DNA of 45,364 nt, taken from assembly GCA_902801475.1 (NCBI GenBank), contig CADCIO010000020.1:1-45364 (forward strand), in the 5' to 3' direction. The notes below the pieces were generated by a model. It had not been told where the DNA came from and searched no databases. It saw nothing but the letters and a program-made list of their open reading frames with translations. Origin of the DNA: an uncultured Bacteroidales bacterium (GTDB lineage: Bacteria > Bacteroidota > Bacteroidia > Bacteroidales > Bacteroidaceae). A program made the translations under genes and the position numbers. Positions 36,037 to 44,770 of this stretch are shown piece after piece; position 1 is the first letter of the stretch, and the number at the start of each line of letters is the position of its first letter.

Positions 36037-36432
36037 TCATTTCAAGATATTTAGTTGTTTATTCAATGTCGTTTCCGTTCTATCGCTGATGGCTTTCGCC
36101 TTTTCCAGTTGTCCCATGCCCTTGTTCAGGTTGTACGCCAAGAGATTCAGCGCCTTTTCGGCCTCTCGCTGTGCAACAACAGGGTCTTGGTAGGTGTCCT
36201 GCTCGGCAAGGTTGACAGGATCTTTCTGACTGAGGAAGTAATACCCCACTCCAAAGACAAGGGCGATGCAGGCAGCAATGGCAGCATAGCGCATCGGCTT
36301 TGGGAACATCAGACGCTTTGCCTTCTTCTGTTCTTCGGCACGTTCCCACTCGTCTATTTTCGCCGAAAGCCTTTCCTCCAATCCTTCAGGGATGGGGATT
36401 TGTTCGAGTTCCTTCCAATTCAGCTTGTCCAT
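36037..36432 (-). CDS. Putative anti-sigma factor, single-pass membrane protein
   Basis: A 131-residue protein with a cytosolic N-terminal helical part (LNWKELEQIPIPEGLEERLSAKIDEWERAE), one membrane helix (YAAIAACIALVFGVGYYFL, about 48-66) and a periplasmic helical tail. Topology and a 13-bp overlap with the upstream ECF sigma gene indicate an anti-sigma factor. It has no zinc-finger HxxxCxxC motif, so it is not a ZAS-type anti-sigma. The periplasmic tail could sense the DUF4252 proteins, but this is inference. Confidence 0.7.
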   Translation of the reverse strand: MDKLNWKELEQIPIPEGLEERLSAKIDEWERAEEQKKAKRLMFPKPMRYAAIAACIALVFGVGYYFLSQKDPVNLAEQDTYQDPVVAQREAEKALNLLAYNLNKGMGQLEKAKAISDRTETTLNKQLNILK

Positions 36433-36932
36433 GTCTTTGTGAGTTTTAAGTATTGTTGTTTCAGTTTCTGTTTTGTTCGCATCATGATGATGCGGAGGTT
36501 GCCTTGCGAGAGTCCCGTGTCTTGTTCCATCTCTTCGTAGGACTTGTCTTCCACCAGATGCATTCGGAGGATGCTGCTGTCCCGTTCGGGCAATCCGTCC
36601 ATCAGGACTTTCATCTGCTGAGCCTCATCTTTCGCCTCTAAGGTTTCAGAGAGGCTGCGTTCATCTGGCGGGTCAGCGTGGTCTTCGATGTCCTCTGAAG
36701 TGTCAATGCGTTTCAGTCGCCGTTGGTCTCTGAACAAGTTTTGCATCAGCGTCACGAGATAAGCCTCCGTCATAGCCTCCTCCCTCAGGTCATCACGCTT
36801 CTGCCAGAGCTTCAGATATGTGTCCTGAAGCAGGTCTTCGGCATCTTGCGCATTACCCGTCAGATGGTAGCCCACCCGATAGAGCCGCCTGTGGAAAGGC
36901 ATAAACCGCTGCTTAAATTCCCGTGCGTCCAT
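36420..36932 (-). CDS. ECF-type RNA polymerase sigma factor
   Basis: A 170-residue sigma-70 family factor with only regions 2 and 4. Region 2 contains LTGNAQDAEDLLQDTYLKLWQ, and region 4 contains MHLVEDKSYEEMEQDTGLSQGNLRIIMMRTKQKL with its helix-turn-helix. It should redirect RNA polymerase to a small regulon, probably including its own operon. The gene overlaps the anti-sigma gene by 13 bp and follows the upstream DUF4252-like gene by 9 bp. Confidence 0.92.
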   Translation of the reverse strand: MDAREFKQRFMPFHRRLYRVGYHLTGNAQDAEDLLQDTYLKLWQKRDDLREEAMTEAYLVTLMQNLFRDQRRLKRIDTSEDIEDHADPPDERSLSETLEAKDEAQQMKVLMDGLPERDSSILRMHLVEDKSYEEMEQDTGLSQGNLRIIMMRTKQKLKQQYLKLTKTWTS

Positions 36933-36941
36933 TCGTCACCT

Positions 36942-37736
36942 CTACTTCTTCTCTTCTCGTGTAAATTCAATCACCACTTTCTTGTCCGTATGAGGGTACT
37001 TCTCCTTCACGGCTCCACCAACGACCCACGTTTCATGGTTCCAACTGATATCCTGTGCCCTCATCCATTCGTCAGCTTCCTTCGTTGAATGGAGGTCTGG
37101 ATACTCCTGACCGTTGATGACGATGAGCACATTACCGGCCTCCACCTCTTTCACCATCTCCTTCATGTCCACCGCATCATCGTCTCGGTCAAACTTAACT
37201 ACGTCATCAGAGAAGACCTTCTCCAAACTTACCTTCTTGATTTTGCAATCGAGATGAGCCAGCACCACCTTATTCCAGATGTCCCAACGCACCAGCACAT
37301 CTTCCACCACATCCTTCTTCTCCTTTCCGTAAACACTCAACTTACTCTGGGGGGTCATCACCTGACTCATCAGCTGCTGAAAGATATTGTCTTCCTCATC
37401 AGGAGCATTGTTCTCGTTCAGCACCATCAGCAGTTCATATCCCTTCAACGACTGTATGTCCTTGTCCAGCGTTTCCATCAGAACAGAATCCGCCTCCATC
37501 GTCACCTGCTCCGTCCCTTTGAAATTCTTCCTGATGAAGGCAATCTCCTCCTCGCTCAGTCCATTCGCAGCCATCTCCCCATCACTCACCATTCCGATAG
37601 AATCCCCAGTCACCTCCGTATTCTCATACTGAACACCCGGCATCGCCTTCCATTTGGCAATCAGCTTCTCTGCTGTCTGCCCCAGCATACTGCCCACACA
37701 GAGCAGCATCGCCATTGATAACAATAACTTCTTCAT
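36942..37736 (-). CDS. Exported DUF4252-like protein with C-terminal plug-like module
   Basis: A 264-residue exported protein with a signal peptide ending near MLGQT. The N-terminal 190 residues are DUF4252-like (KLIAKWKAMPGVQYENTEV, YELLMVLNENNAP). The last ~65 residues (NVLIVINGQEYPDLHSTKEADEW...KVVIEFTRE) resemble the same region of the neighbouring upstream protein and, more distantly, the LIVIDGKE...IEVL plug-like modules of TonB receptors. I chose the ATG at 37736 because it starts a good signal peptide and lies 7 bp after the preceding gene. Confidence 0.75.
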   Translation of the reverse strand: MKKLLLSMAMLLCVGSMLGQTAEKLIAKWKAMPGVQYENTEVTGDSIGMVSDGEMAANGLSEEEIAFIRKNFKGTEQVTMEADSVLMETLDKDIQSLKGYELLMVLNENNAPDEEDNIFQQLMSQVMTPQSKLSVYGKEKKDVVEDVLVRWDIWNKVVLAHLDCKIKKVSLEKVFSDDVVKFDRDDDAVDMKEMVKEVEAGNVLIVINGQEYPDLHSTKEADEWMRAQDISWNHETWVVGGAVKEKYPHTDKKVVIEFTREEKK

Positions 37737-37743
37737 ATCGTTC

Positions 37744-38508
37744 TTAACCTTTAGATGTTGTATATTCAAATGCCATTTTCTTCTTCGAGTCCGGGTACTT
37801 CTTCTTCACATCCTTTCCCTCCAGCACATTCATGTCTTTGGGACTTCCGCTCCAACCCATATTGTGGTCGAACATATACCGTACAGCCTCATCCTGCGTA
37901 TGGAGGTCTGGATAAACCTTTCCATCAATCACAATCAGGCAATCCCTGTACTTACGAGGTTCCTGCTCATCCTCGTCATCATCCTCCCACTGATTCGTCT
38001 TCACAGAGAGCGACATCTTCTGGGCCTCCGAGTCCTTTTCTTCCGCCATCAGCTTCGCAAAATCTAACTTGCCATCAATGACAATCAGAGCCGACTCATC
38101 ATCTTCTTCTGTATAAATGACAAGGGTGGAGTTCTTTCCCTTTCGGAGCTGATAGATTTTCATCTTCTCGCCATCATCGCCATTTGCATTAACGAGCGGT
38201 TCCCAGCCACGACCACCCAAGATACGTTTCACTTGCGTGCTCAAATTCTCTGCAGCCTCCTTTGCCTCGCAATGATAAATACTAAGACTTTCCATTTTCT
38301 TGAGTATATCGCCTGACATACCACCGACAGAGAGATTCTCACCAAAATCTAAATCGCCCCCACTCTTGGCTACCATGTCAAGCATTGATTTATTGATACT
38401 GACATGCTCCACACCCTCAATCTTTGCCAGTTGCTTAAAGGCATCTTTCTGTCCGAAGGCAACACTCACCATGAGTGCCATTGCCACGCATAAGATTGTT
38501 CTTTTCAT
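37744..38508 (-). CDS. Exported DUF4252 protein with C-terminal plug-like module, first gene of the sigma operon
   Basis: A 254-residue exported protein with a signal peptide ending near VAFGQK. The DUF4252 region (KIEGVEHVSINKSMLDMVAK, IYQLRKGKNSTLVIYTEEDDESALIVIDGKLDFAKLM) spans about 20-165. A tail of about 65 residues (CLIVIDGKVYPDLHTQDEAV...KKMAFEYTTSKG) is paralogous to that of the next gene. It opens the five-gene operon behind a clear promoter, so the secreted proteins are made before the sigma factor. Confidence 0.82.
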   Translation of the reverse strand: MKRTILCVAMALMVSVAFGQKDAFKQLAKIEGVEHVSINKSMLDMVAKSGGDLDFGENLSVGGMSGDILKKMESLSIYHCEAKEAAENLSTQVKRILGGRGWEPLVNANGDDGEKMKIYQLRKGKNSTLVIYTEEDDESALIVIDGKLDFAKLMAEEKDSEAQKMSLSVKTNQWEDDDEDEQEPRKYRDCLIVIDGKVYPDLHTQDEAVRYMFDHNMGWSGSPKDMNVLEGKDVKKKYPDSKKKMAFEYTTSKG

Positions 38509-38812: not shown

Positions 38813-39535
38813 CTATTCGAGATGGTAAAAATGGATGATGAATTGTGCGATTACAGTACCTTGATGTCTCAAGTTCTTAATGGACAATACCGCCTCCTTC
38901 TTGACTTCTTCATCTTCGTGCTGAGCATGATTGTTGAGCAAATACAGTTCGTATTCAGGTGTGTATTCAGGATGACCCTGAAAAGTCAGGATGTAATTCC
39001 CTATTCGGAACCCTTCGTATTGACAAAATGAGCTTTGGGCTATGATGACGGCATCAGCAGGAAGCTTGGATACTTGATCATGATGGTTATACAAGAGGCG
39101 GAGATAACCGTCAGAAAAATAGGGGCGCATGACTCCATCTAGAATGAAGGATTCCCGAATGCCAACACCCCATCCTCCCGCATATCGCTGTACATTGCCG
39201 CCTAATGCCTGTGCTATGGCTTGATGACCGAAACATATGCCGACCAGCTTGATGTGAAGCGTCGCTGCATTCCTAATCCACTGTAGCAACTCAAGAATCC
39301 AAGGTTCTTTGTCGTAAACAGAACTGTTGCTTCCCGTTATCAGGTATAGTTCCTCCTGGTTCAATTTAGGAGGGAAGACACCTTTCATGACAGGAAAGAC
39401 TTCAAATACAACAGATTCGCTGACAGAATGGAACAAATCCCCGAACATGGATGCATACGAGGGAATGTTTGGCGGCAATTGCCCTGGGAATGTGTCGCAT
39501 AAGAGAAGATTTATCTTTGGCTGTTCGTTCATCAT
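38813..39535 (-). CDS. Class I glutamine amidotransferase-like protein
   Basis: A 240-residue stand-alone GATase with the complete triad: Cys101 in VGICFGHQAIA, His188 and Glu190 in FQGHPEYTPEY. Such domains hydrolyse glutamine to feed ammonia to a partner, or cleave gamma-glutamyl amides. It carries no synthetase domain. It is the last gene of the ATP-grasp operon and overlaps the preceding AstE-like gene by 4 bp. An ammonia-supplying or gamma-glutamyl-cleaving role for that pathway is inference. Confidence 0.88.
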   Translation of the reverse strand: MMNEQPKINLLLCDTFPGQLPPNIPSYASMFGDLFHSVSESVVFEVFPVMKGVFPPKLNQEELYLITGSNSSVYDKEPWILELLQWIRNAATLHIKLVGICFGHQAIAQALGGNVQRYAGGWGVGIRESFILDGVMRPYFSDGYLRLLYNHHDQVSKLPADAVIIAQSSFCQYEGFRIGNYILTFQGHPEYTPEYELYLLNNHAQHEDEEVKKEAVLSIKNLRHQGTVIAQFIIHFYHLE

Positions 39536-40461
39536 ATCACATGTATCATGAAAAGCAAGGCGTTTTGGAACACCACAGGACGGTGGTGGGCAAAGAACAC
39601 TGTGCCTTCGGCTGTTGCCTTGATGTCGCTGAGGATTTGACCGTTGTACGGGTCGATAATGTGGGCAAGCGATTCACCTGAAGCAACGCGGCTGCCTGCA
39701 TCCACCAGACGATAGAAGATGCCCGCATGACGTGCCTTGATATGCTGGAGACTTGCCTCGTCGATGCAAATGGATTCATAGGCAGCACCAAGAGAGCCGT
39801 AATTGATGATGCCCGTCCGCGTCATCATGCGGAAGATGGCGTCGATGGTCTCGCCGCTGGTGTTCAGATCAATCCTATCGGTCTGTCCAGCATAGACGGA
39901 GAACGCCTTGGTGCTCCATAATTGCCAGTTATAATTGAGCAGAGTGGTGTCGAAGGGACGCGGTTGGTAGGTTGTGACGTATTTCATGCCGAAAAGGCGC
40001 GCGGTCTCTACATCCTCATAGCCTGTTTGCAGCATCCGCACATGGGGGATGAAGTCGCCAGGCACATAGTAGCTGGCCAACTGTATGCCGTACTCGAAGC
40101 CGTTGAGGGCCGAAAAAACTGCGGAGGCAATACGCTGTGTCGTCTCACCTTGGTCGTAACCAGGGAACATGCGATTGATGTCGGTGTTGTCCATTGCCCA
40201 GAAACGCCGATTGACGTTCATCGAGAACGGGTTGCACGAAGGGATGATCAGAATGCTTTTCCCTTCGGCTATGCCTCCACGCTGTTCAAGCATCGTCAGA
40301 CGATTCACCAACTGCGAGCAGATATATTGTTGCTGCACCTCATCACCTCGCATGGCACCCACGATAGCCAATGTCTTTTCGCCCTCTCCAAAGCGGTAAC
40401 CCTTGACGCGGAAATTGTCACGGCAGGGCGATGTCATCTCAAATATTGTCTCTTTTCTCAT
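39532..40461 (-). CDS. AstE/AspA-family pseudoenzyme (zinc ligands replaced)
   Basis: A 309-residue paralogue of the neighbouring 40458-41393 product, alignable over its whole length. In the active family the zinc motif is HGxE; here it reads MRGDE, with Arg38 at the histidine position and Glu41 kept. The second zinc histidine (DIHS in the partner) is replaced in QLAS (Ala129). The catalytic glutamate (VVEMG) is replaced in SVYAG (Tyr190). The fold-typical DINRMFPG and IPHVRM segments are retained. It is therefore predicted to be inactive and possibly a regulatory or structural partner. It overlaps both neighbours by 4 bp. Confidence 0.85.
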   Translation of the reverse strand: MRKETIFEMTSPCRDNFRVKGYRFGEGEKTLAIVGAMRGDEVQQQYICSQLVNRLTMLEQRGGIAEGKSILIIPSCNPFSMNVNRRFWAMDNTDINRMFPGYDQGETTQRIASAVFSALNGFEYGIQLASYYVPGDFIPHVRMLQTGYEDVETARLFGMKYVTTYQPRPFDTTLLNYNWQLWSTKAFSVYAGQTDRIDLNTSGETIDAIFRMMTRTGIINYGSLGAAYESICIDEASLQHIKARHAGIFYRLVDAGSRVASGESLAHIIDPYNGQILSDIKATAEGTVFFAHHRPVVFQNALLFMIHVI

Positions 40462-41393
40462 GCTTCTTCCGTGTTAAAGATTCGTGCCATCAGCGACCCT
40501 TCGTAAACGATGGGATAGGCACGTATGGTGAACAAATAGCCATCAACGGGCGAACTGACCGTACTGAGCACACGACCTCGAAGCGGATCAACAATCTGGC
40601 CGATGGTTTGTCCTCGGCTGACATTGATGCCACATTTCAATTCTGTCAGGAAGACACCAGAGGTCTCGGCATTGAGGAATGTCACACGATCACCTTCACA
40701 AACAAGCGGTTGGGGCAATCTGTCCTTAGGACTTTCCTTCCACATTCCCATCGTCTGCATCAGATGCAGAATGCCCTCCACGAGCCGTCGGCACATCTTG
40801 TGGTTGATGCGCTGACCGACCCCCATCTCCACCACCAGACAGGGAGTGCCAGTAGCATTGAGTGAGTGAGCCAGCGTAGCCTCCAGCACTGTGGCAGCAC
40901 CATGCACCCATACAAAGTCCATGCCCAGCCGTTCTGCAAAGGGAACCAGCCACTTGGAGTCCTGCACATTGATGCGCACCTGCGGCGTCTCACGCAAATA
41001 GAGATTGCTGGAGTGAATGTCAATCACCATATCTGCCCCCTTGATGTCCTCAATAATGGCATGCGCCGTCTGTTCCGCCATTGTACCCTGCGGATCACCA
41101 GGGAAGATACGGTTCATGTCGAGGTCGAAATTGGGAATGCCACGCTGAATGGTGTCGATGCCCAGTGGATTGAGGGCTGGATAGATCTCGAGAGTGCCAT
41201 CCAAAGAACTGATACGTTCCGAGACGATGTGAGCCAGTTCATAACACACCATCTGACCCTCCAGTTCGTCACCGTGTGTACCTGTCACCACACAGAAGCG
41301 CAGACCGTCATTCCGTCCGTTCTGAATGACATTCTTGCGAATGCGGAACTGCTCGTCAATGGGAAGTTCCGTAGATACTATTGTCTTCATCAT
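40458..41393 (-). CDS. AstE/AspA-family zinc acylase or carboxypeptidase
   Basis: A 311-residue enzyme of the succinylglutamate desuccinylase/aspartoacylase family (M14-like). The zinc site is complete: His40 and Glu43 in GTHGDE, His127 in IDIHSSN. The catalytic glutamate is Glu189 in VVEMG. DLDMNRIFPGDP and PQVRIN complete the family pattern. A C-terminal beta-rich domain of about 90 residues follows. Members remove acyl groups from amino acids or cut C-terminal residues. Its substrate is unknown, but the context points to a product of the ATP-grasp ligase. It overlaps the transglutaminase gene by 4 bp. Confidence 0.9.
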   Translation of the reverse strand: MMKTIVSTELPIDEQFRIRKNVIQNGRNDGLRFCVVTGTHGDELEGQMVCYELAHIVSERISSLDGTLEIYPALNPLGIDTIQRGIPNFDLDMNRIFPGDPQGTMAEQTAHAIIEDIKGADMVIDIHSSNLYLRETPQVRINVQDSKWLVPFAERLGMDFVWVHGAATVLEATLAHSLNATGTPCLVVEMGVGQRINHKMCRRLVEGILHLMQTMGMWKESPKDRLPQPLVCEGDRVTFLNAETSGVFLTELKCGINVSRGQTIGQIVDPLRGRVLSTVSSPVDGYLFTIRAYPIVYEGSLMARIFNTEEA

Positions 41394-42145
41394 ATTTCTT
41401 GCAGTGTAACGTGAATCGTGGTTTGCTGGGCGGCTTGCCCTGTGTAGAGCCCGCGGCTGACAGAACAGTCGCGAACATCTCGACCATGCGCCAACTTAAC
41501 GTAGCCATCGCTGATGCATCGGCCGTGGGTAGGGTCGAACCCCAACCAATTGTAGCCGTCAAATATCTCCACCCAGGCATGGGTCTCGCCCTCCCCCGTC
41601 AGGAATCCATTGACGTAGCGGGCTGGTATGCCTCGCTGGCGACAGAGGGCAATCATGAGATGGGCGAAGTCTTGACATACACCCTTCCTCCGTTCCAGCA
41701 CCTCGGCAGCTGTGGTCTCAACGGTGGTGCACAAAGGCTGATAAACGATGTTTTCAAACAGCCAGTTGCAAATAGCGTAGGCTGCATCTATGACATTGCC
41801 AGGTGTCGTTAGCACCGCTTCCTTGACCGTGGTCAGTGCTGTAGGCTGCTTGAATAGGAACAAGTTTTCGCCGCGATACTTGATGAGATAAGTATCTGTC
41901 GCCACAATGCCCGTGCTTACATAAGCGAAAGTCTTATGCGGTTCAGTGGCACCACCGAAAAGGATGCGGTTGTAGAACGCATCGTGCCCTGCCTGTAGCC
42001 AGTAGTCAGTGGACACCACCAAGTGCTCCTGCTCCACCGTCTGACAGGCATTGCTGACAGGCTGACAGCGCAGCATCACCGCATGGATGGGCACAGCTTC
42101 CGAGAACTCGACAATGGTTTGGTAGTTATACAGATATCGTTTCAC
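41390..42145 (-). CDS. Transglutaminase-like cysteine peptidase
   Basis: A 251-residue cytosolic protein. The N-terminal beta domain (about 1-120, starting YLYNYQTIVEFSEAV) is that of bacterial transglutaminase-like proteins. The catalytic triad is Cys157 (RKGVCQDFAHL), His189 (THAWVEI) and Asp204 (GFDPTHGR). These proteins usually hydrolyse rather than crosslink, acting on amide or peptide bonds. Together with alpha-E and circularly permuted ATP-grasp genes it forms a long-recognised conserved gene trio. It overlaps both neighbours by 4 bp. Confidence 0.92.
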   Translation of the reverse strand: MKRYLYNYQTIVEFSEAVPIHAVMLRCQPVSNACQTVEQEHLVVSTDYWLQAGHDAFYNRILFGGATEPHKTFAYVSTGIVATDTYLIKYRGENLFLFKQPTALTTVKEAVLTTPGNVIDAAYAICNWLFENIVYQPLCTTVETTAAEVLERRKGVCQDFAHLMIALCRQRGIPARYVNGFLTGEGETHAWVEIFDGYNWLGFDPTHGRCISDGYVKLAHGRDVRDCSVSRGLYTGQAAQQTTIHVTLQEI

Positions 42146-42840
42146 ACCCTCACCAATTGGTTGATAAATTTCAGTAACTTGTTCTTGTATTCCACATCCT
42201 TGAGATTGAATCGTTCCCGAGTGATGAGCCGGTTGAGTTCTTCCTCAATGTGGTCATCGACAATACTGGGCATGTGACGGAAGTAGTGCTTCACAGAATC
42301 GTATGCCAAGGCCACCCGTTCGAAGTCGTAGTCAAAACGCAGCAGCATATCCAGATTCTCGATGTTGCGACCAATCATCATGATGTAGAGTGCCTTATGG
42401 TTCTTCAGCCGTTGCTCAGCTGAACCCCAAAAGGCCAGCGACCAGTCAATGACGGGTTGCAGGCAAATGATATTCTTTTCCTGCTTGTTGCGGCATTCTT
42501 TCAGCAGCGCCAGACTCATTTCCAGATAACTGAGCGTTTCCGACAGGATGTCCTCACGGAGAAGAATGGCATTGTCCATTGCTCTCATCTGAGAAGACAT
42601 CACAGTGCCAGGATTGATATCGTCATACATGATGCCGAGTATAAACTCCTCGTTGGTTTGATAGACGCCCGCCGTGTCCAAATTCTGCCAGATGGGCCAA
42701 TAGTCTTCTAACTCACCATCAATCATCTTGTCATGACACTTCCGTAACAAATGCAGGGTAATATAAACCCGCTCCTCGTATCTCCCCAGCCAGTAGAGGC
42801 TGTTGGCCTTCTTAGCCGATATGATTGTATGTTTAACCAT
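42142..42840 (-). CDS. Alpha-E domain protein
   Basis: A 232-residue all-helical protein with the alpha-E signature near the N-terminus (AKKANSLYWLGRYEERVYITLHLLRK). Typical members have around 300 residues, so this one is a short form. Alpha-E proteins nearly always accompany the circularly permuted ATP-grasp and transglutaminase genes, and their role is unproven; some substrate-binding or carrier function has been proposed. It starts 29 bp after the ATP-grasp stop and overlaps the transglutaminase gene by 4 bp. Confidence 0.88.
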   Translation of the reverse strand: MVKHTIISAKKANSLYWLGRYEERVYITLHLLRKCHDKMIDGELEDYWPIWQNLDTAGVYQTNEEFILGIMYDDINPGTVMSSQMRAMDNAILLREDILSETLSYLEMSLALLKECRNKQEKNIICLQPVIDWSLAFWGSAEQRLKNHKALYIMMIGRNIENLDMLLRFDYDFERVALAYDSVKHYFRHMPSIVDDHIEEELNRLITRERFNLKDVEYKNKLLKFINQLVRV

Positions 42841-42868
42841 AGCTCAAAATCCTTTTAACCTTTAACTT

Positions 42869-44203
42869 TTAACCATTTTCCTCCAACACCCAGGTGTCCT
42901 TAAATCCACCTCCCTGTGAAGAGTTCACCACGAATGAATCAGGATTTCGTGAGAACCGCGTCAGTCCACTCGCCCATACCTTGGTCTCTTTTCCGCTAAC
43001 CACGAAGGCTCGAAGATCTGCCTTGCGTTCCACAGGCTTATCATCCTCCAGTATCTCAAGATCCTTGAAGTCGATGACCTCCTGAGCGATCCAACGTCGT
43101 GGCTGGTCGATGATCAATTCCTTCAATTCTTTAAGCTTCTCTTTCGACAAATCCTTGCCGAACACCACTCCATAACCACCAGCCTCGCTAACATCCTTGA
43201 TGACCAGACGCTGGATGTTCGCCAGCACATAGTCATAGTCTTTCTTGAAATACGGCAGATAGGTTGGGGCATTCTGCAGGATAGGCTGCTCTCCAAGATA
43301 ATATTCCACCATCTTGGGAACGAAGTAATAAATCCCCTTGTCGTCAGCTACACCATTGCCGATAGCATTAAGAAGTGCCACATTGCCAGCCTTGTATGCC
43401 TGCATCACATTCGGAATGCCCAACAAGGAAGAAGCCTCAAAAATCAATGGGTCCATGTATTCATCACTCACACGACGGTAGATGCAGCCCACTCGGGTCT
43501 TTTCCTTGTAAATGCCCGCATAGTAAACCTTATTGTCCTCTACAAAGAGGTCGCCAGGATATGCCAACGTGGCACCAGTCTTCTCTGCAAAATAGCTGTG
43601 CTCAAAGTAAGCAGAGTTGTAGCGACCTGGAGTCAGAATGACAGAGATACCCCTGCCGTTGTTCATCTCATCCATCATCGTGGAGAGCAATTTGGAATAG
43701 TTGCGATTTTCAGCCACAGCATTCTGGGTGAAGGTCTGAGGCGACACCTTACGGGTAATCTCTCGGGCAATCATCGGATAGCTGGCACCAGAGGGAATGC
43801 GCAAATTGTCCTCCAGCACATACCATTGGCCGTCCTTTCCTTCCACAAGGTCGATCCCGGCAATGTGGGCATACACCTCCCCTGTTGGGCTAATTCCTTC
43901 ACATTCTGGCATATAACCTTTTGAGGAGTACACAAACTCTTCAGGAACAATGCCATCCTTGATGATGCGCTTGTCGTGATACACATCCCAAAGGAACTTG
44001 TTTAATGCTGTCACACGCTGCCTGAGACCATTCTCCAGATAAGCCCAATCACTACCTGAGATGATTCGGGGGATGGAGTCAAAGGGGAAAAGTTGCTCAT
44101 TGAAAACCCCGTGCTTATACACTCCGAATCTCACGCCATATCTTTCCATCCATTTATTGACAGTGTCTCGGCTGTCAATCAGCTCATTAATCCTGATATT
44201 CAT
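42869..44203 (-). CDS. Circularly permuted ATP-grasp type 2 ligase
   Basis: A 444-residue predicted carboxylate-amine ligase. Diagnostic segments are VLEDNLRIPSGASYPM, ILTPGRYNSAYFEH, CIYRRVSDEYMDPLIF, GNGVADDKGIYYFVPKM, EAGGYGVVFGKDL, and the C-terminal RAFVVSG...VWASGLTRFS. The family is predicted to form amide or peptide bonds in small metabolites or on protein ends. It leads an operon of six genes with its own promoter. I chose the ATG at 44203 (MNIRINELID), because the 18 upstream codons do not look conserved; the start at 44257 lies within the transcript too. Confidence 0.92.
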   Translation of the reverse strand: MNIRINELIDSRDTVNKWMERYGVRFGVYKHGVFNEQLFPFDSIPRIISGSDWAYLENGLRQRVTALNKFLWDVYHDKRIIKDGIVPEEFVYSSKGYMPECEGISPTGEVYAHIAGIDLVEGKDGQWYVLEDNLRIPSGASYPMIAREITRKVSPQTFTQNAVAENRNYSKLLSTMMDEMNNGRGISVILTPGRYNSAYFEHSYFAEKTGATLAYPGDLFVEDNKVYYAGIYKEKTRVGCIYRRVSDEYMDPLIFEASSLLGIPNVMQAYKAGNVALLNAIGNGVADDKGIYYFVPKMVEYYLGEQPILQNAPTYLPYFKKDYDYVLANIQRLVIKDVSEAGGYGVVFGKDLSKEKLKELKELIIDQPRRWIAQEVIDFKDLEILEDDKPVERKADLRAFVVSGKETKVWASGLTRFSRNPDSFVVNSSQGGGFKDTWVLEENG

Positions 44204-44308: not shown

Positions 44309-44339
44309 CAAAGGTACATCATTTTGAATAACTGCCAAA
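44309..44339 (-). promoter_or_regulatory. Promoter of the ATP-grasp/alpha-E/transglutaminase operon
   Basis: On the minus strand TTTG (44339-44336) and TACCTTTG (44316-44309) are 19 nt apart. It gives a leader of about 100 nt to the ATG at 44203. Confidence 0.75.
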
Positions 44340-44770
44340 ACAAACAAGAAGAAAATTATCAATAATGATACTATTTTAACACAAAACAATGCTTTTTGAA
44401 ACATTTTATGCGAAATACATTTCAAATTGAAAGCATTTAAAAGTATTTACTTTCTATTTGAAATCATCAAAGAATTCTTCATCTTGCATCAAAGCGCTAC
44501 CTCATTCCTACACAAAAATCCACCTCAAATGCCTTTTTTTGCAAAGATACAAAAAAATCTCCCGTATTCCATCAGAACACGGGAAACTTTTCATTTATCA
44601 TTTTTCATTTATCATTTAGCGCAGCGCTTCTCTTTGCTCTTTTGTGCATTACAAACAAAAGGAACGCAAAACAAAATATACAATAAGACACGTTTCATAT
44701 ATCTTTTATTCTTTTCTTAAAATGCCCCACGATTCTCACGAACAGCGAGGTGAACCTACATATTAAAAGG
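44340..44770. other. AT-rich gene-free region
   Basis: No convincing gene. It contains A/T tracts, a tandem catttatcattttt-type repeat near 44589-44618, an isolated minus-strand TATCTTTG at 44542-44549, and a CCCGT/ACGGG hairpin at 44561-44583 followed by a T-run on the minus strand. Confidence 0.55.

Follow-up and report, generated by a model that had tools for sequence, protein, structure and literature searches.

A conserved Bacteroidales operon of ATP-grasp, alpha-E, transglutaminase-like and paired AstE proteins as a candidate nitrogen-responsive amide module

What might be the function of an operon that sets a predicted ATP-dependent ligase beside predicted amide hydrolases? The question is raised by six open reading frames (ORFs), all on the minus strand, which form a gene cluster in a 45,364-nucleotide stretch of DNA, hereafter the window, from an uncultured Bacteroidales bacterium of the Bacteroidaceae (assembly GCA_902801475.1, contig CADCIO010000020.1). 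They encode a circularly permuted (CP) ATP-grasp protein, an alpha-E protein, a transglutaminase-like protein, two AstE-like proteins (AstE1 and AstE2) and a class I glutamine amidotransferase (GATase)-type protein (Table 1). With a probability of about one half, we read this operon, of five genes in Bacteroidales and six here, as a nitrogen-responsive module that makes and breaks an amide and so stores or salvages nitrogen when ammonium is scarce. The nitrogen link is absent from the original prediction, drawn up from the sequence of the window, in which a make-and-break cycle was already proposed; such a cycle fits the mix of domains described below. Already known are the trio of ATP-grasp, alpha-E and transglutaminase families and its nitrogen control in other bacteria, while the new elements are the five-gene Bacteroidales form, with its pair of active and zinc-less AstE proteins and without the Anbu peptidase, the optional GATase, and the linkage to the ammonium transporter gene amtB.

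An operon of CP-ATP-grasp, alpha-E, transglutaminase and Anbu genes was reportedly predicted by Iyer et al. in 2009, and Pfam searches assign the first three proteins of the window to the families of that trio. The ATP-grasp protein matches CP_ATPgrasp_2 (PF14403) with 457 bits, the cut-off being 32, and has a solved relative, annotated as a putative glutathionylspermidine synthase (3n6x), at E 3e-115. Among what we take to be its ATP-grasp motif residues, numbered here from TTG 44257, K354, R416 and N445 are kept in 72 of 72 aligned rows and R411 in 71. The alpha-E protein scores 67.8 bits to PF04168, spanning only model positions 3-164 of 294; its ER motif is conserved (E23 in 74 of 79 rows, R24 in all 79), and its AlphaFold model is helical with a mean predicted local distance difference test score (pLDDT) of 89.9. 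The transglutaminase-like protein reaches 90 bits to Transglut_core, with a Cys-His-Asp triad in 75 of 75 rows. The trio recognized in the original prediction is present, its motifs intact.

Which genes belong to the unit was asked of ATP-grasp relatives found at 217 loci in genome contigs. The best 80 of these were studied and are the basis of the locus counts; their titles name Bacteroidales lineages (one of them Marinilabiliaceae), many being metagenome-assembled genomes (MAGs) from rumen or gut, and linkage denominators include only loci whose contig extends far enough to hold the gene in question. From the ATP-grasp gene onward, the alpha-E, transglutaminase, AstE1 and AstE2 genes follow in this order at 79 of 79, 77 of 77, 76 of 76 and 71 of 72 loci, respectively, the sole exception being locus L122, and this linkage is far beyond chance. 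Cultured carriers of the operon include Prevotella sp. P6B1 and P5-92, Bacteroides ilei and Bacteroides mediterraneensis. Four-base-pair overlaps recur across the 55 complete loci (alpha-E/transglutaminase in 25, transglutaminase/AstE1 in 43, AstE1/AstE2 in 20), and the distance matrices of the five proteins, computed for these loci and the window, correlate with r of 0.84-0.94. Because a GATase gene directly follows AstE2 in just 8 of 64 loci, the conserved unit is one of five genes and the GATase is an optional extra, specific to certain lineages. At three further loci a GATase gene lies 2.9-4.0 kb away, and none was found in the nine order relatives with contig sequence beyond AstE2. A constant six-gene operon is ruled out by these counts: the linkage foreseen in the original prediction held for both AstE genes and failed for the GATase, which had been cast as a fixed accessory.

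In the three displaced cases (L059, L064 and L074), 2-oxoacid:ferredoxin oxidoreductase genes, named by Pfam, separate the five-gene core from the GATase gene, joined in L059 and L064 by a phosphofructokinase-like gene identified by eye; these intervening genes look like housekeeping insertions. A methylglyoxal synthase-like gene, also identified by eye, follows the GATase gene.

Beyond the close relatives, the distribution of the ATP-grasp gene is patchy, since matches occur in 20 of 393 genomes of the order and in none of five other genomes of the same family. Twelve of the 20 are at least 67% identical, the window's own included; of the other 11, two of which (L121 and L127) also belong to the 80-locus set so that the surveys overlap, all carry AstE1 and nine carry AstE2, the contigs of the remaining two ending first. 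CP-ATP-grasp proteins were found in 144 of 392 genomes of the phylum, the window's (458 bits) scoring low among full-length ones, most single-domain members of which reach 500-569 bits. The other Bacteroidota versions examined are just 40-47% identical to it: at 25 such loci (20 from the phylum sample and five from the order, with 8-19 kb of sequence each), no AstE gene was detected nearby at E <= 1e-3, and a transglutaminase gene was detected at 20. Of five plasmid-borne ATP-grasp relatives examined, four are annotated in this region, and no AstE gene is listed there for any of the four, in a gene table that is incomplete. Two plasmids, of Caballeronia (L200) and Hymenobacter (L201), carry a putative zinc-binding metallopeptidase gene beside the ATP-grasp and alpha-E genes, and its product may be a further hydrolase that has joined the trio.

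The AstE pair sets the unit apart. AstE_AspA_cat is matched with 91 bits by AstE1 and 46 bits by AstE2. All four residues of the HxxE...H zinc site and catalytic glutamate are kept in 71 of 71 rows of AstE1, as they are in all 14 generic AstE proteins from Bacteroidota, and AstE1 accordingly looks to be an active zinc hydrolase. In AstE2, by substitution of H with R, H with A and E with Y (68 of 69, 68 of 69 and 69 of 69 rows, respectively), the zinc-site and catalytic positions are lost, the AstE/AspA family fold and an Asn-Arg pair (N96-R97) being retained; AstE2 is therefore predicted to be a co-inherited, non-catalytic partner. An acylase-like zinc enzyme with an inactive paralogue, as had been proposed, is what these alignments suggest. 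The two exceptional AstE2 rows carry S (L128) and H, the latter an apparent AstE1/AstE2 chimera in L122. There, a single 466-residue ORF fuses alpha-E to transglutaminase and is followed by one AstE protein (L122:11360-13651), the first half of which is closer to AstE1 and the second half to AstE2; this is a single MAG contig, and an assembly error is possible.

A recent duplication giving rise to AstE1 and AstE2 was considered and is not borne out: in an unrooted tree of 38 rows, AstE1, AstE2 and the 14 generic AstE proteins form one starred group each, on long branches, and the tree leaves a sister relation of the pair unsettled. Among the 392 phylum genomes, the only AstE2 orthologue is the window's own, other listed matches being at most 32% identical; plasmid relatives comprise 18 records, for which the 15 matches listed are all at most 29% identical. 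One AstE2 relative of 477 residues (P0112, 47% identity) carries an internal repeat of about 160 residues.

The solved relatives of the AstE proteins to which a named reaction is assigned, the N-acetyl-diaminobutyrate deacetylase DoeB and the cyanophycin dipeptide hydrolase CphZ, each hydrolyse an amide in a nitrogen-rich compound. For AstE1, the bit score is 66 against 3cdx, a structure without a proven reaction, 49 against DoeB and 26 against CphZ. DoeB/EutE (6twl, 6twm) are the best-scoring named-reaction enzymes for both AstE proteins, although AstE1 falls far under the corresponding NCBIfam cut-off (55.8 versus 402.7 bits). Cyanophycin metabolism was dropped as a candidate function: CphZ (8ein, 8eip) acts downstream of cyanophycin synthetase, for which the highest-scoring match in the window's genome has 130 bits where the cut-off is 850, and CphZ does not stand out among the relatives of AstE1. 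The isoaspartyl dipeptidases of those Bacteroidota that have cyanophycin synthetase were described as still undiscovered in 2023, in the part of that source available (PMC10206079); since the genome examined here is without the synthetase, we make no claim that the operon supplies them.

The association with nitrogen emerges from the neighbourhood. In a scan of 230 neighbouring proteins (121 upstream and 109 downstream, from the two nearest ORFs of at least 110 residues per side, minus some rows), AmtB is the commonest family overall, with 16 members; it accounts for 14 of the upstream proteins, the next family for 4, and for two of the downstream proteins, where POR_N leads with 5. A BLAST survey of the 80 loci, covering 882 kb of flank in total, places AmtB in the flanks of 17 loci, whereas fewer than one would be expected by chance if a genome of about 3 Mb is assumed to carry one or two amtB copies. 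Four layouts occur, with amtB immediately upstream on the same strand, in divergent orientation, at a greater distance upstream, or downstream, and in 10 loci it lies on the same strand no more than about 80 bp upstream. With GltB and AsnB (named via NCBIfam), GltD (by eye) and type III (GSIII-type) glutamine synthetase (by Pfam tally and by eye) included, 22 of 80 loci have at least one such gene in their flanks. At L126 (6069-9998), the ATP-grasp gene is immediately preceded, on its own strand, by genes for a GSIII-type glutamine synthetase and for asparagine synthase B.

Promoter placement adds to this association. The sequence upstream of the window's ATP-grasp gene fits what we take to be the Bacteroidetes promoter consensus, TTG followed by TAnnTTTG, the latter at 44316-44309, and 28 of 67 relatives have a TTG-N18-23-TAnnTTTG site in the 250 bp preceding the gene, compared with 1.35 after mononucleotide shuffling, so that the promoter of the original prediction stands in its Bacteroidetes form. 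A sigma-70 scan found no site at 44309-44339, its promoter-like sites not being enriched over shuffles (11 versus 12.4). The Bacteroidetes-type site precedes the ATP-grasp gene in none of nine loci with amtB directly upstream versus 28 of 58 others (Fisher p 0.008, a statistic that ignores kinship). The lack of such a site in the former points to co-transcription of amtB with the five-gene unit. On the ATP-grasp tree the amtB label changes six times, at least five changes being forced by starred branches.

Several observations weigh against the proposed nitrogen-responsive module. Correlated distances among the five proteins are also expected from shared species history alone, and amtB adjacency is partly the property of one clade (8 of 14 labelled tree rows). 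The flanks of 58 of 80 loci contain no member of the five nitrogen-assimilation gene types; the window genome's one amtB sits on another contig, so that its nitrogen link is by kinship only; and its three nearest relatives (L055-L057) are without amtB, two of them having gltB about 1.2 kb past AstE2. Other neighbours recur too, largely clade-wise: CarB in 6, NAD synthase in 5 and 2-oxoacid:ferredoxin oxidoreductase in 5 of 80 loci. The published nitrogen control concerns Pseudomonas and Burkholderia, that of the Bacteroidales operon being predicted from its neighbourhood; no substrate or product of this ATP-grasp family was found in print; and sequence scores do not favour an isopeptide over an N-acyl substrate for AstE1. 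In Yersinia, neither peptidase activity of Anbu nor specific contacts between the operon proteins were detected, in the part of the report available (PMC6376114).

The many loci with none of these nitrogen genes might instead speak for biosynthesis of a small-molecule or peptide natural product, with amtB an incidental neighbour, and sets of ATP-grasp enzymes and hydrolases are indeed found in biosynthetic clusters. We regard this as improbable, given the prominence of AmtB among the neighbours, its repeated changes on the tree, and the finding that no exporter or other flank gene is constant among ORFs of at least 60 residues, a size range that a shorter precursor gene would escape.

The nitrogen link of the operon agrees with published control of the trio by nitrogen and NtrC in Pseudomonas and Burkholderia, as given in sources available in part. 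In P. putida, the trio genes PP_2686-2688 rise 11-37 fold under nitrogen limitation and are listed under NtrB/NtrC, while the Anbu gene PP_2685 changes just 1.1-4.8 fold (PMC7801951); PP_2685 and PP_2688 are up about 16-22 fold with nitrate versus ammonium (PMC8050072). The B. cenocepacia cluster I35_5080-83 falls within the sigma54-NtrC set (PMC5491218), and in marine metagenomes the trio domains vary in step with urea domains (PMC3597751). In P. ruminicola 23, an ammonium-responsive PII-amtB-asnB cluster lies near glnN and gltBD, the direction of the response being inconsistent within the source (PMC5552732). Partial sources not used as evidence concern a predicted RpoN site at a CP_ATPgrasp gene (PMC13207237), a COG2308 gene near a nodule-competition marker (PMC8407117), one transposon site in a DUF403 gene (PMC6414703) and a single naming of CphZ (PMC12661447). 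No paper on a CP-ATP-grasp/AstE operon was found by title or start of abstract, in a search that left out most subscription papers.

The window's unit thus shares with the P. putida operon (PP_2685-PP_2688) three families side by side and a nitrogen-linked context, and differs in its short alpha-E protein, its added AstE pair, absent from the 25 distant Bacteroidota loci, and its lack of Anbu. As had been noted from the window, no proteasome-family gene accompanies the trio: the genome (98.7% complete) yields no PF00227 match at E <= 10, the same search being positive in 11 of 14 control genomes. This bears upon the function first proposed for the trio, protein tagging, whereby ATP-grasp and transglutaminase would modify proteins with a peptide or an amino acid that AstE1 would take off again. 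Such tagging appears unlikely here, as the genome has no proteasome-family match, small molecules are the substrates of the closest AstE relatives whose reaction is named, and no protease or unfoldase recurs among the 25 commonest neighbour families listed per side.

In the make-and-break module that we favour, the ATP-grasp protein, partnered by the helical alpha-E, would activate a carboxylate as an acyl phosphate and couple it to an amine, the product being an amide or isopeptide conjugate; release of phosphate from ATP by the Yersinia ATP-grasp protein is on record (PMC6376114, available in part). AstE1 would split the conjugate bond using zinc, AstE2 may bind substrate or set specificity as a non-catalytic subunit, and the transglutaminase-like protein could move or release the acyl group through a Cys thioester. 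Since no signal peptide is visible by eye in any of the six proteins, the cycle would presumably be cytoplasmic. A comparable logic, with an ATP-grasp ligase and a protease in one operon, is described for RimK/RimB and RloC/RloA, which differ in having another ATP-grasp family and an aspartic peptidase instead of AstE, according to the part of the source available (PMC12239564).

Where present, the GATase might remove a gamma-glutamyl or similar group. It scores 50 bits in Pfam and keeps the class I Cys-His-Glu triad in 10 of 10 rows. Its nearest solved relative is gamma-glutamyl peptidase 1 (9k7i, E 2.9e-20), presumably a plant enzyme, with which its Cys and His-x-Glu motifs align; the alignment spans just GATase residues 27-196, and the bacterial protein is known here from sequence alone. 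The idea of a gamma-glutamyl substrate, a tentative one, stems solely from this resemblance. It also lends itself to a purely catabolic account, in which AstE1, the transglutaminase and the GATase would salvage imported amides or N-acyl amino acids and the ATP-grasp protein would merely activate the substrate. By analogy, bacterial polyamine breakdown uses gamma-glutamylation as an activating step, and the GATase is nearest the PRK05665 amidotransferase model (172 bits, under the cut-off of 309), which we take to be tied to polyamine gamma-glutamyl hydrolysis, a tie not confirmed in a literature search. The nitrogen-limitation setting would suit such salvage as well. It nevertheless seems rather unlikely, for the GATase is missing from most loci and no oxidase, dehydrogenase, aminotransferase or importer besides AmtB is constant nearby.

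A bolder form of the proposed module can be put forward tentatively, as possible though doubtful: that rumen and gut Bacteroidales hold a nitrogen reserve not yet described, in the form of a small amide or isopeptide other than cyanophycin, which is made by ATP-grasp and alpha-E and remobilised by AstE1 with its zinc-less partner, the complete cycle being induced alongside the ammonium transporter. The trio is widespread and nitrogen-regulated in Pseudomonas and Burkholderia, and a zinc amide hydrolase from a family of known chemistry, standing in place of Anbu, narrows the product to what such an enzyme can split, which opens the idea to direct testing by metabolomics on cells short of ammonium. 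The ammonium economy of rumen Prevotella and their kin bears on nitrogen use by livestock.

Table 1. Features of the operon and its upstream region in the window
Feature	Coordinates	Strand	Basis
Circularly permuted ATP-grasp ligase (PF14403/PF04174)	42869..44203	-	Pfam, solved relative, residue conservation
Alpha-E protein, short form, 232 aa; ER motif E23-R24	42142..42840	-	Pfam, AlphaFold
Transglutaminase-like protein with Bact_transglu_N; Cys157-His189-Asp204; GTG start within 4-bp overlap	41390..42145	-	Pfam
AstE1, zinc acylase/isopeptidase-like; H40, E43, H127, E189 (catalytic-base position)	40458..41393	-	Pfam, solved relatives
AstE2, zinc site lost (R38, A129, Y190); N96-R97 and E41 kept; predicted non-catalytic partner	39532..40461	-	Pfam, alignment
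Class I GATase-type protein, Cys101-His188-Glu190; lineage-specific sixth gene	38813..39535	-	Pfam, solved relative
Bacteroidetes-type promoter; TTG near -33, TACCTTTG near -7	44309..44339	-	Sequence match
Terminator-like hairpin, possibly of upstream unit	44552..44592	-	Hairpin scan

The ORF coordinates bear out the predicted layout of six minus-strand genes, the last five joined by four 4-bp overlaps; the gap between the ATP-grasp and alpha-E genes is 28 bp. The ATP-grasp ORF could also open at TTG 44257. A start at ATG 44203 is reasonable and preferred, because it gives 444 residues against a family median of 442 and because many relatives align only from residue 18-26 onward of the longer ORF; the alignments of the nearest relatives start slightly further upstream. 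The hairpin at 44592-44552 may terminate the preceding unit, although terminator-like hairpins are not enriched in the window over shuffles (7 versus 5.9). Downstream, a further minus-strand group (36420-38508) comprises a DUF4252 protein, a protein without clear family and an extracytoplasmic function (ECF) sigma factor, the last of which, at 137.7 bits, clears the cut-off of 130 set for the NCBIfam model sigma_PG0214.

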